From contig JAFLKR010000152.1 in NCBI GenBank assembly GCA_019163135.1, forward strand, positions 1-64,000: a DNA stretch of 64,000 bases, written 5' to 3'. Source of the DNA: Desulfobulbaceae bacterium (GTDB taxonomy: Bacteria; Desulfobacterota; Desulfobulbia; Desulfobulbales; Desulfobulbaceae). Shown piece after piece: positions 44,847-49,113 of this stretch; position 1 is the first letter of the stretch, and every line of letters starts with the position of its first letter. The notes under the pieces were generated by a model, which worked only from the letters and a program-made list of their open reading frames with translations, ran no database searches and was not told the origin of the DNA. A program made the position numbers and the translations under genes.

Positions 44847-45089
44847 ATGTCCATCGGCACAGAAAAAATCAAGGTCCTGCACATTCTCTCTGAAAATCTC
44901 AAAAATCCCCAGCCCCAATTGGTCCGTTCCACCGACATCGCCAACCAATTGAATATGAGCATCCCGGAAACACATCTCCTGCTCAAGGTGATGAACGACA
45001 TGGGGGTTATCGAAAGCAATGTCGATGGGCAACTCTCGCTCATCACCCAGAAGGGATTGCATTATCTGCATCATCAAGTGGCCCTATGA
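44847..45089 (+). CDS. Small winged-helix/HTH-like protein
   Basis: RSTDIANQLNMSIPETHLLLKVMNDMGVIESNVDGQLSLITQKGLHYL; immediately upstream of GAF-ANTAR gene. Confidence 0.7.
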   Translation: MSIGTEKIKVLHILSENLKNPQPQLVRSTDIANQLNMSIPETHLLLKVMNDMGVIESNVDGQLSLITQKGLHYLHHQVAL

Positions 45090-45108: not shown

Positions 45109-45822
45109 ATGAACGAGTCGCAGCAGCACAGCTATGATAATTATATTAAGGCGTTGATGGACATAAGCCAGGCCATCACCTCGGACCTGTTCCTCGAAGA
45201 TTTTTTTAAACTGATCGTCATGGTGGTGGCCAAGGTAACCGGGGTGGATATCTGCTCCCTGTGGCTGGTAGACGAAAATAGCAATCCTCCCAAAATCCGG
45301 CTCAAAGCCACCCAGGCCATTGAACCGGAATATGTAATCGACCGATCGCTCGATCTGCATGAGGGGGTGGTAGGGTATGTTATTTCGACCCGAAAACCTC
45401 TGGTGATCAAAGACGTGCTTCAATGTGAGATTTTCAAAGAAAAGGAAATGGCAAAGAAACTGGGACTTGTCTCCATGGTGGGCGTACCGCTGCAGGGAAA
45501 AAAAGACAAGATCATCGGCGTGCTTAACTGTTTCACCTCAACCCCCCATCAATTCTCCGAAACCGATATCAACCTGCTAACCACAGTAGCTAATCAGGCA
45601 GCTGTGGCCATCCTCAACACCGAACTTATAATCAAAACCAAGATTATTCAGGAAGAGTTGCGGTCACGGAAGAAGATTGAACGGTCCAAGGAAATCATCA
45701 TGGATCGACATGGCATCAACGGCGATGAGGCTTATAAATGGATTCAAAAACGGAGCATGGATTCTCGCAAAACCATGCTGGAGGTGGCAGAAGCTATCCT
45801 GTTATCCAACGAACTGTATTAA
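45109..45822 (+). CDS. GAF-ANTAR transcription antiterminator
   Basis: N-terminal GAF (LEDFFKLIVMVVAKVTGVDICSLWL...); C-terminal ANTAR RSRKKIERSKEIIMDRHGINGDEAYKWIQKRSMDSRKTMLEVAEAILLSN; ATG 45109 preferred. Confidence 0.92.
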   Translation: MNESQQHSYDNYIKALMDISQAITSDLFLEDFFKLIVMVVAKVTGVDICSLWLVDENSNPPKIRLKATQAIEPEYVIDRSLDLHEGVVGYVISTRKPLVIKDVLQCEIFKEKEMAKKLGLVSMVGVPLQGKKDKIIGVLNCFTSTPHQFSETDINLLTTVANQAAVAILNTELIIKTKIIQEELRSRKKIERSKEIIMDRHGINGDEAYKWIQKRSMDSRKTMLEVAEAILLSNELY

Positions 45823-45890
45823 CCGACTCCCCCTCTTCATCGGGCGGCCAAAACTATGAGCGGAAAGCAAAAGCGGAGATAACTTATTTC

Positions 45891-45919
45891 TTGACATAAA
45901 TATTAAGTTTGAATAAATT
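45891..45919 (+). promoter_or_regulatory. Putative sigma-70 promoter for the glutamate synthase leader
   Basis: TTGACA (45891-45896), 17-bp spacer, TAAATT (45914-45919). Confidence 0.6.
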
Positions 45920-45935
45920 ATATAAAGATAAAAAC

Positions 45936-45999
45936 TGACCGTACAACGGCGTGCGATCAAGTTGTTTAAGTTATACACGACAAGACAAAGGCGTCTGTC
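45936..45999 (+). promoter_or_regulatory. Dual-hexaloop ANTAR-responsive RNA element (P1 45936-45959, P2 45979-45999)
   Basis: P1: TGA-C-CGTAC[AACGGC]GTGCG-A-TCA; P2: GAC-(A)-AGAC[AAAGGC]GTCT-GTC; both loops have A at position 1 and G at position 4; P2 overlaps the terminator arm. Confidence 0.85.
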
Positions 46000-46026
46000 T
46001 CTCCCCCGAGACAGACGCCTTTTTTT
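45987..46026 (+). terminator. Leader intrinsic terminator upstream of glutamate synthase gene
   Basis: AAAGGCGTCTGTCTC-TCCCCC-GAGACAGACGCCTTT perfect 15-bp stem followed by T-run. Confidence 0.95.
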
Positions 46027-46090
46027 GTCGATTTCCCCCGACTTGCACCTTTAAAAGTGCAAAATAAAAAATAAAAACAAGAGGTTCACT

Positions 46091-47728
46091 ATGCGTTTTT
46101 CCAAATCCAACGATGTTTTGGGAACCACCAACCGAGGAAACCCAGCTGAATCCAGCCTGTGCACCCTGTGTCGTGCCGATTGCACTGGCCAGTGCGAAAC
46201 CTGGAAATCGAGCCTGGTCGGTCGGAAACTGCTTTATCCCCGTGACTTTGGCGTGGTCACTGCCGGCGCCAACAATACCACCCATATAGGCGTTTCCTAC
46301 AACTCACTGCGGATTCAGGGATATGCCTACGGCGCCCACGGCATGGCCCAAGGCCTTTCCAACGATGCCGACAATTGCATTTTCCCCAATGTCGACCTGA
46401 CCACGGAATTTGGCTATGAGGTCAAGACCAAGAGCAAAATCCCGCTAATGACCGGCGCACTGGGCTCCACCTTCATCGCTGCTAAGTATTGGGATTCGTT
46501 TGCCATCGGCGGTGCCTTGGTCGGCATTCCAATCGTGGTCGGCGAGAATGTCGTCGGTGTTGACAAGGCTTCTGAGATCAACAACGGCAAAATCACCAAA
46601 GCGCCTGAGTTGGACCGCCGCATTGACACCTACCTGCGGTATCAGGAAGATTTTGGGGCGATCATCGTCCAATTGAACGTCGAAGACACCAGAAATGGCG
46701 TGGCTGAATATGTGGTCGGCAAATACGGCGACCGCTGTATCGTTGAGCTGAAATGGGGTCAGGGCGCCAAGGATATCGGCGGCGAGATTCAGGTGTCCAG
46801 TATCAAATACGCACAGTTCCTAAAAAATCGCGGTTATATCGTCGATCCCGACCCGACGTCTCCTGAAGTGCAGATGGCCTACGAGAAGGGCGCAATCAAA
46901 TCCTTCGCCCGCCACAGCCGCCTGGGTGGCACCAACCTGACTTCGGTTGAGTTGGTCCAGGAGGATTTCATGAAGTCGGTCGAGTACCTGCGCAAGATCG
47001 GCTTCAAACGCATCTCGCTGAAGACTGGTTCTTATGGCATGGAAGAATTGGCCATGGCCATTAAATTTGCCACCGAGGCCAAACTGGATCTGCTCACTAT
47101 CGACGGTTCCGGTGGCGGCACCGGCATGAGCCCCTGGAACATGATGCAGAGCTGGGGTGTTCCCTCGATCAATCTGCATTCCAAGGCCTATGAGTACGCC
47201 AGCATCCTGGCCGCTCAAGGCAAACGGGTGGTTGACCTCTCCTTTGCCGGCGGATTTGCCCTGGAAGACAGCATCTTCAAAGGACTTGCCTTGGGCGCGC
47301 CCTTTACCAAGTTGATCTGCATGGGACGCGGCATCATGATCCCCGGATTTCTGGGTGCCAACATCGAGGGTGCGATCCATCCGGAGCGTAAAGAAAAAGT
47401 CAACGGCAACTGGGATAAACTGCCGGCCAGCATCCTCGCCATGGGCAGCACCCCAGAAGAGATCTTTGCCTCCTACTACGATGTTCAGAAGAAAGTGGGT
47501 AAGGATGAGATGAAGAATATTCCGTACGGGGCGATCGCTATGTGGACCATGGCGGATAAACTGGCTTGCGGCCTACAGCAATTGATGGCCGGGGCAAGAA
47601 AATTCCAACTCAACAAGGTTACCCGCAACGATCTGTTTGCCGGCAACCGGGAGACGGCGAAAGAAACCGGCATCACCTATATCACCGATGCCAAGGACGA
47701 AATCGCCAAAAAAATTCTAGCAATGTAA
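46091..47728 (+). CDS. FMN-binding glutamate synthase family protein (GltB central/FMN domain type) with N-terminal Cys motif
   Basis: CTLCRADCTGQCETW; VELKWGQGAKDIGGEIQVSSIKYA; GSGGGTGMSPWNMMQSWGVPS; LALGAPFTKLICMGRGIMIPGFLGANIEGAIHP. Confidence 0.93.
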   Translation: MRFSKSNDVLGTTNRGNPAESSLCTLCRADCTGQCETWKSSLVGRKLLYPRDFGVVTAGANNTTHIGVSYNSLRIQGYAYGAHGMAQGLSNDADNCIFPNVDLTTEFGYEVKTKSKIPLMTGALGSTFIAAKYWDSFAIGGALVGIPIVVGENVVGVDKASEINNGKITKAPELDRRIDTYLRYQEDFGAIIVQLNVEDTRNGVAEYVVGKYGDRCIVELKWGQGAKDIGGEIQVSSIKYAQFLKNRGYIVDPDPTSPEVQMAYEKGAIKSFARHSRLGGTNLTSVELVQEDFMKSVEYLRKIGFKRISLKTGSYGMEELAMAIKFATEAKLDLLTIDGSGGGTGMSPWNMMQSWGVPSINLHSKAYEYASILAAQGKRVVDLSFAGGFALEDSIFKGLALGAPFTKLICMGRGIMIPGFLGANIEGAIHPERKEKVNGNWDKLPASILAMGSTPEEIFASYYDVQKKVGKDEMKNIPYGAIAMWTMADKLACGLQQLMAGARKFQLNKVTRNDLFAGNRETAKETGITYITDAKDEIAKKILAM

Positions 47729-47805: not shown

Positions 47806-49113
47806 CTACTTAATCTTTATCCACAGGAGTTCCGCCGGGGTGTCACCGGTATTCTCCCATTGTTCCGGGGTATCCTTCTTCAGGTAAATAATATCCCCCA
47901 CCCCTACCTCTTGACTTTGCTCATTGATCTGCACGGTCAGTTTGCCGGCCAGCAGGTAGCCCATCTCTTCACCCTTGTGACTGAAAAAATGATTTGCCAG
48001 TTTCCGGCCCGGTTCGATCCTGACTAAATAGGGCTCCACCCCGGCATCCTTCATGTCCGGCGGTAGAAGCTGCACCCCTTCGACCAGTCCCTTGGGCACC
48101 TTGTCAAAGGTGGCGCTCACCCCCGCACCGCCGCGATAGACACAGCCATTATGCGCAGTGGCAAAGCCGTCGAAAAACGAACCAACCTCGACTGAAAGGC
48201 TTTCCGCCATACGAAACAGCGCCGGTATCGAAGGGTAAATGAGATTTTTCTCCACCTGGGATATACTGCTAGGGGTCACACCGGTTTTTTCCGCCAGTTC
48301 TTTTTGCGAGAGTCCCTGTTTTTTCCGAACCGCCTTAATCCTGGCACCGAGATCGAATCGTTCTGGCAGGGGCTTGGCCAGATCGAAGGCGACCTCTGCA
48401 TCTTCACAGCTAAAGGTCTGGGCCTCGTTGAGAAACTTTGAGTTGCGCTTCTCCGCTTTCAGTATCTTGAGCGCCGGCTTACCGTTTTTCACCGACAAAT
48501 CGATTGCCACCTGGGCTATCTTATTGATATTAGCTTTCAAACGGTTTGAGTGGGCGCTTTTTTCAATGACCCAGTATGCAATAGTCTCCAGTTCATAGAG
48601 CCGGGGACAGGTCCGGGCATAGAATTTCAAGACCTGCTCCTCGCCGCCCCAAAGATCTTGCATGCCGGTCAAACTATCCATGATAAACCGAATATCGCCG
48701 GACAGATTACTGTGCAGACCGTAGATGGCCTCGCCGACCAAGGCGGGGTTGGTGGGATCATTGACTTTGATCACCTGATGCGGCCACTGAGCCCCGTCCT
48801 TTTCGTAAAATTTGTTAAAAACCTCGGAGCTATCCCCTTTTCCGTTAGTGAAACAGTCCAGGATGGTGAAATGCTGACTCTCAGCCAATGGCCCGAGAAA
48901 GGCCACCACATTTTTGGGACTGCGATCAAAGCTGACATAGATCGTCGGTTTTTTATGAGCGAGCGACTCACGGATAAAATTTACGCAAAAGGCTGCGGAA
49001 AAACTGCCGGCATCTTCATACCACAGGACGTTATCGCCGATATATAAATCGCCCAACAGACTGTCGAGTTGCGTGATTCCGGAGGAAACCCGTTTCTTTT
49101 TAATGGTATCCAT
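47806..49113 (-). CDS. KaiC/RecA-like domain lacking a Walker A motif, fused to XRE-type HTH and C-terminal cupin
   Basis: SSGITQLDSLLGDLYIGDNVLWYEDAGSFSAAFCVNFIRESL; IRFIMDSLTGMQDLW; HTH IKAVRKKQGLSQKELAEKTGVTPSSISQVEKN; cupin EEMGYLLAGKLTVQINEQSQEVGVGDIIYLKKDTPEQWEN. Confidence 0.85.
   Translation of the reverse strand: MDTIKKKRVSSGITQLDSLLGDLYIGDNVLWYEDAGSFSAAFCVNFIRESLAHKKPTIYVSFDRSPKNVVAFLGPLAESQHFTILDCFTNGKGDSSEVFNKFYEKDGAQWPHQVIKVNDPTNPALVGEAIYGLHSNLSGDIRFIMDSLTGMQDLWGGEEQVLKFYARTCPRLYELETIAYWVIEKSAHSNRLKANINKIAQVAIDLSVKNGKPALKILKAEKRNSKFLNEAQTFSCEDAEVAFDLAKPLPERFDLGARIKAVRKKQGLSQKELAEKTGVTPSSISQVEKNLIYPSIPALFRMAESLSVEVGSFFDGFATAHNGCVYRGGAGVSATFDKVPKGLVEGVQLLPPDMKDAGVEPYLVRIEPGRKLANHFFSHKGEEMGYLLAGKLTVQINEQSQEVGVGDIIYLKKDTPEQWENTGDTPAELLWIKIK

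Follow-up and report, generated by a model that had tools for sequence, protein, structure and literature searches.

The window, the whole stretch of 64,000 nucleotides that was analysed, holds a putative regulatory locus in the order GAF-ANTAR gene, promoter, hairpins P1 and P2, terminator, and glutamate-synthase-like gene. Its features are given below with their positions in the window.

44847..45089, plus strand: 80-aa open reading frame, winged-helix-like by eye, directly 5' of the ANTAR gene
45109..45822, plus strand: GAF-ANTAR protein of 237 aa, putative antiterminator (Pfam GAF and ANTAR)
45891..45919, plus strand: sigma-70-type promoter TTGACA-N17-TAAATT, 10/12 matches
45936..45959, plus strand: P1 hairpin with hexaloop AACGGC (A1, G4)
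45979..45999, plus strand: P2 hairpin (putative antiterminator) with hexaloop AAAGGC (A1, G4) and a bulged A
45987..46026, plus strand: intrinsic terminator, 15-bp stem and T-run
46080..46084, plus strand: ribosome-binding-like AGAGG of the target gene, from sequence reading
46091..47728, plus strand: glutamate-synthase-like (FMN TIM-barrel type) protein of 545 aa, the candidate target (Pfam Glu_synthase)
47806-49113, minus strand: HTH and cupin protein that weakly matches a KaiC-like ATPase, encoded convergently to the target gene

On direct inspection, the letters, loops and 19-nt linker of both hairpins agreed base for base with those given by the sequence-only reading from which this analysis started. 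The arms of P1, CGTAC (45940-45944) and GTGCG (45951-45955), enclose the loop at 45945-45950, and the hairpin is extended by pairing of TGA (45936-45938) with TCA (45957-45959). The linker occupies 45960-45978 and is followed by P2, in which GAC(A)AGAC (45979-45986) and GTCTGTC (45993-45999) flank the loop at 45987-45992. A perfect 15-bp terminator overlapping the loop and 3' arm of P2 had also been claimed, and it is seen here: 45987-46001 pairs with 46008-46022 in 15 perfect pairs, the T-run ends at 46026, and the 5' arm consists of the P2 loop, the P2 3' arm and two further bases. P2 and the terminator are mutually exclusive. The promoter that had been placed ahead of the hairpins is present as well, with TTGACA at 45891-45896 and, after 17 nt, TAAATT at 45914-45919; TTGACA and a -10-like hexamer stand 5' of P1 in most of 39 related leaders.

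The 105-nt leader folds at -45.9 kcal/mol (z = -8.4 against shuffles), and the separate elements at -26.4 (terminator), -7.0 (P1 with its extension) and -5.7 kcal/mol (P2). Forcing P2 costs the leader about 17 kcal/mol of stability compared with the terminator fold, so termination should be the default state and P2 should need help to form. A dual A1/G4 hexaloop pair arose in 95 of 20,000 dinucleotide shuffles of 45823-46090, and such a pair together with an overlapping terminator in none of the 20,000. Both strands of the window contain no other dual A1/G4 pair with an overlapping terminator.

The gene directly upstream encodes an ANTAR protein whose sensor had been described as a GAF domain and not a receiver, and the Pfam scores bear this out (GAF 77.2 bits; ANTAR, PF03861, 64.8 bits against a curated cut-off of 27.3). 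The single match in a genome-wide search makes it the sole ANTAR protein of the genome. Its AlphaFold model (mean pLDDT 81) comprises a GAF fold, a long helix and the ANTAR helices. Solved relatives of the ANTAR part are Rv1626 (1s8n), NasR (4akk), AmiR (1qo0) and 6wsh, a response regulator that we take to be EutV. The RNA contacts of EutV include R142, K143, K149, Y164, M172 and R175, of which Y164 stacks on loop G4 (PMC8934654). Transferred via the alignment, after allowing for a shift of two between the chain and paper numberings that was deduced from the residue letters, these contacts correspond to R187, K188, K194, Y209, M217 and R220. Among 40 family proteins, R187, K188, K194, M217 and R220 are invariant, and the position of Y209 is Y or F, always aromatic. 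At the EutV contact positions E160, R168, N173 and R177 the GAF-ANTAR protein has differing residues. The 80-aa open reading frame at 44847-45089 is kept at the same place in relatives with 41-95% amino acid identity, and a profile search gave neither a Pfam nor a PDB match for it; it is possibly a third part of the cassette.

A1 and G4 occur in both hairpins of all 39 aligned leaders, and loop position 2 is A in all but one of the 39. Five of the seven P1 pairs have changed on both sides; in P2 the core GAC/GTC is invariant, and some outer pairs have changed on both sides. Twenty leaders that the covariance model R1 found in another family of the same order all precede the same enzyme gene. 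In their alignment, which is fitted to R1 and in which a few rows may be near copies of training rows, seven pairs show two-sided changes, and the covariation score exceeds those of all 500 shuffles and all slid controls.

R1 itself was built from 19 leaders. The covariance-model search of leader and genome, which had been suggested as a check, gave a single significant site (71 bits, E 1e-14) for the whole genome of 3.64 Mb; the second-best match had E 5.5. Family orthologues with enough flanking sequence have the same promoter, hairpin and terminator arrangement downstream. Among the 75 genomes of the family, 16 encode an ANTAR domain and 15 of these have an R1 site, as opposed to none of the 59 without ANTAR; in the sixteenth, the contig stops 166 nt past the gene. 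At the level of the class (263 genomes; GAF-ANTAR at E <= 1e-50, R1 at E <= 1e-3), the protein was found in 37 genomes, the site in 35 and both in 34, with R1 matches that partly are its own training leaders. GAF-ANTAR is absent from 226 class genomes, one of which has an R1 site. The GAF-ANTAR genomes missed by R1 are G047, with a weaker match (E 0.019), and G031 and G051, which are cut at contig ends. Because the genomes are related by descent, their co-occurrence counts do not represent independent cases. Apart from the eut-type sites described below, the R1 sites examined precede the same enzyme gene. G094, a 99% complete genome, carries an orphan R1 leader (L136, G094:C68:37500-43500) with the enzyme gene (88% identity), and a search of it for an ANTAR domain found none.

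Weaker second R1 matches were obtained in G020, G037 and G038, ahead of a permease gene. Reading through the G038 locus gave genes for an APC-type permease and then for a REC-ANTAR protein, a histidine kinase, and EutA-like and EutB-like proteins, the last two identified by eye from translations. The second dual-hexaloop leader is found in L111 (G038:C1:4554500-4568500), and also in L087 and L088. Although R1 was trained on glutamate-synthase-like leaders, it recognises a eut-type ANTAR leader, which serves as a natural positive control. The eut-type leader and the glutamate-synthase-like leader have almost identical P1 hairpins, and therefore cross-talk between the REC-ANTAR and GAF-ANTAR proteins is possible.

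Taken together, the invariant A1 and G4, the covariation, the overlapping terminator, the conserved contact residues, the presence of just one site and one ANTAR protein in the genome, the co-occurrence and the recognition of the eut-type leader uphold the proposal that the region is an antitermination leader of the ANTAR type, which controls the glutamate-synthase-like gene and is acted on by the GAF-ANTAR protein encoded beside it, and we consider this very probable. Against it count the loop-to-loop spacing, which varies from 28 to 43 nt across the 39 leaders whereas lengthening the linker by 20 nt is not tolerated by EutV, the G that replaces A at position 1 of the P2 loop in a leader outside the alignment (L015), the differing residues at the EutV contact positions named above, and the G094 leader and gene for which no ANTAR protein was found.

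The stem follows the ANTAR gene, in the same orientation, and could be its ordinary terminator, with the hexaloop hairpins coincidental. We consider this very improbable, since a conserved promoter stands between the ANTAR gene and the stem, and since the loops are invariant and the stems covary. Moreover, where the element and the ANTAR gene are parted by several hundred bases of intervening DNA, as in L036, the whole element remains with the enzyme gene, and R1 finds no leader in G028 and G048, which have kept the enzyme gene (77% and 72% identity) and lack ANTAR. Regulated terminators ahead of amino-acid genes are often riboswitches, T-boxes or leader-peptide attenuators, but there is little chance that the leader belongs to one of these kinds. 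At the leader, no Rfam match attained the gathering score of its family, and the conservation is concentrated in the hexaloops and tracks the gene of an RNA-binding protein. For a leader peptide, there is no ATG start in the leader, only TTG and GTG frames with no evident ribosome site. The direction of control is not readable from sequence, and ANTAR-target RNAs can act at other levels too (PMC3369931, PMC8164766). The ANTAR protein might thus bind the RNA and favour termination, or control might run opposite to the proposed direction; we regard this as very unlikely, because P2 can form only in place of the terminator, which is the far more stable fold without protein. A terminator-favoured default accords with a protein that stabilises P2, the mode of action of the EutV, NasR and AmiR systems. 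That a factor other than the neighbouring protein is the cognate one, as the G094 leader might suggest, is extremely improbable, given that GAF-ANTAR is the only ANTAR protein of the genome and is present in 34 of the 35 genomes with a site.

We hypothesize that antitermination by the GAF-ANTAR protein proceeds as follows. A leader of roughly 100 nt would be transcribed from 45891-45919. In the default state, its terminator (45987-46026) would fold and halt RNA polymerase ahead of the glutamate-synthase-like gene. Once the neighbouring protein has perceived its signal through the GAF domain, an ANTAR dimer would bind the P1 and P2 hexaloops via A1 and G4. The bound P2 would be held closed, and its loop and 3' arm would be kept out of the terminator. 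Without the terminator, the polymerase would read through and the target gene would be expressed. From the computed features we infer the RNA binding and the dimerisation of the GAF-ANTAR protein as well as the direction towards antitermination.

The gene downstream had been taken for a glutamate synthase gene. A related gene does lie there, but not the canonical enzyme: the Glu_synthase Pfam match of the 545-aa protein is partial (51.6 bits, profile positions 188-301 of 369), and the amidotransferase domain (GATase_2) is absent, so that Pfam does not yield the canonical GltB set of GATase_2, central and Glu_synthase domains. In canonical GltB, a 3Fe-4S cysteine motif follows the FMN domain. 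This motif was not found in the 545-aa protein, in which only C410 is conserved in that region; the N-terminal cysteines C24, C27, C31 and C35 are invariant in the alignment of relatives, made without L054, which has an in-frame stop in its enzyme gene. Three proteins of the genome have a Glu_synthase domain, and the two encoded elsewhere match better than the target; a full-length match lies in a 1495-aa open frame elsewhere in the genome. The AlphaFold model of the enzyme has a mean pLDDT of 62, with residues 1-113 below 50, and its top fold match, the Azospirillum glutamate synthase 6s6s, is only supportive because the model is of such low confidence. Canonical GltB was rejected as the identity of the target, in view of the partial match and of the GltB encoded elsewhere in the genome. 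Thus, with a partial domain match, a low-confidence model and better Glu_synthase proteins elsewhere, the product of 46091-47728 is by its sequence a divergent protein, for which 'glutamate-synthase-like' is a safe name. The gene after the target lies on the opposite strand, and therefore the transcription unit is apparently monocistronic.

The nearest relatives of the GAF domain by sequence are those of NifA (NCBIfam, E 6.6e-15) and of PtsP, or enzyme I-Ntr (PDB 3ci6, E 4e-13), and the close compact fold matches of the GAF-ANTAR model are PtsP GAF domains as well. These closest sensor relatives are joined to other output domains, AAA+/HTH in NifA and a PTS enzyme in PtsP, in contrast to ANTAR in the window protein. 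The GAF domains of NifA and enzyme I-Ntr have been tied to 2-oxoglutarate and to the glutamine/2-oxoglutarate ratio (PMC9866876, PMC5024086). It is on account of this relationship that nitrogen status would be the signal of the GAF-ANTAR protein, with 2-oxoglutarate or glutamine as the likeliest candidates. The identity to the solved PtsP GAF domains is about 24-30%, so the ligand is not transferable from them and is put forward as a hypothesis.

When named genomes were scanned, the protein turned up in Desulfobulbus alkaliphilus, whose strain DSM 24258 carries the orthologue L033, and in further Desulfobacterota, as well as in Omnitrophota, Atribacterota, one bacterium of the Elusimicrobia, and Clostridia. 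By Pfam or reading of open frames, its neighbours were assigned as glutamate dehydrogenase (L045, L046, L048, L049, L052, L055, L056, L061), glutamine synthetase (L053, L057, L063, L064), ammonium transporter (L047, L057), P-II (L057), GltB (L065) and the glutamate-synthase-like protein (Desulfobacterota, L046). This gene-neighbourhood argument points to a common role in glutamate and ammonium metabolism in the distant phyla. R1 gave no convincing site in the Omnitrophota, Atribacterota and Elusimicrobia loci, so these were judged by a hairpin scan only. The scan found a dual pair in L045, L046, L048, L049, L052 and L065, the score of L046 being inflated by a terminator hairpin; under the strict hairpin rule no dual pair was found in L047, L055, L056, L057 and L061. 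The pairs of L045, L048, L049, L052 and L065 lie between the ANTAR gene and the target, and for each at most 1 of 2000 shuffles was as good. The Atribacterota-type GAF-ANTAR genes stand before glutamate dehydrogenase genes (L045, L048, L049, L052, L055, L056), and four of these six loci (L045, L048, L049, L052) have a clear dual hexaloop pair 5' of a terminator. At L065 4679-4810 (Elusimicrobia, before GltB), the layout departs from the usual overlap, in that the terminator stem appears to be formed by the second A1/G4 hexaloop hairpin itself. Tentatively, and with rather more doubt than conviction, we propose that a cross-phylum family of GAF-ANTAR proteins (Desulfobacterota, Omnitrophota, Atribacterota, Elusimicrobiota) acts as one-component antiterminators. 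Through GAF they would sense an internal nitrogen-status metabolite (2-oxoglutarate or glutamine), and by keeping dual hexaloop leaders open they would govern the formation of glutamate and the assimilation of ammonium.

The kind of mechanism is already known. NasR and the nasF leader of Klebsiella oxytoca share with the present locus a one-component ANTAR protein with a sensor, a dual-hairpin leader, an overlapping terminator and a nitrogen gene; the sensor of NasR is a NIT domain for nitrate, whereas the window protein has a GAF domain and a glutamate-synthase-like target gene. EutV and the eutP-type leaders of Enterococcus faecalis share the dual A1/G4 hexaloops, a P2 that excludes the terminator, and most RNA-contact residues. 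EutV, however, is a response regulator phosphorylated by EutW, while the window protein has a GAF domain and no adjacent kinase. Ramesh et al. (2012; PMC3369931) predicted ANTAR substrates at glutamate synthase and other nitrogen genes, among them those for glutamate synthase in Desulfotomaculum reducens and for nitrogenase in Pelobacter carbinolicus, and the sites in these other organisms have the same RNA motif and the same or a neighbouring metabolic role. In its passages on these predicted sites the paper does not pair them with a GAF-ANTAR protein, although its supplementary tables may list the present site or a related one, and by its account no PAS- or GAF-ANTAR protein had been characterised in 2012 (PMC3369931). 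By 2020, NasR and the light sensor PAL were named as the one-component ANTAR proteins studied (PMC7496416), and the searchable literature, including that after 2020, yielded no RNA target firmly assigned to a GAF-ANTAR protein. What is new is the pairing of a GAF-ANTAR protein with its putative RNA target, and the breadth of this pairing. With one protein, one RNA site and one gene adjacent to each other, and no other ANTAR protein in the genome, sensing and control by a GAF-ANTAR protein become directly testable. A bacterium of the sulfate-reducer type appears to switch on a glutamate-synthase-like gene by means of a sensor protein, encoded adjacent to it, that grips two RNA hairpins and thereby prevents the terminator from folding.
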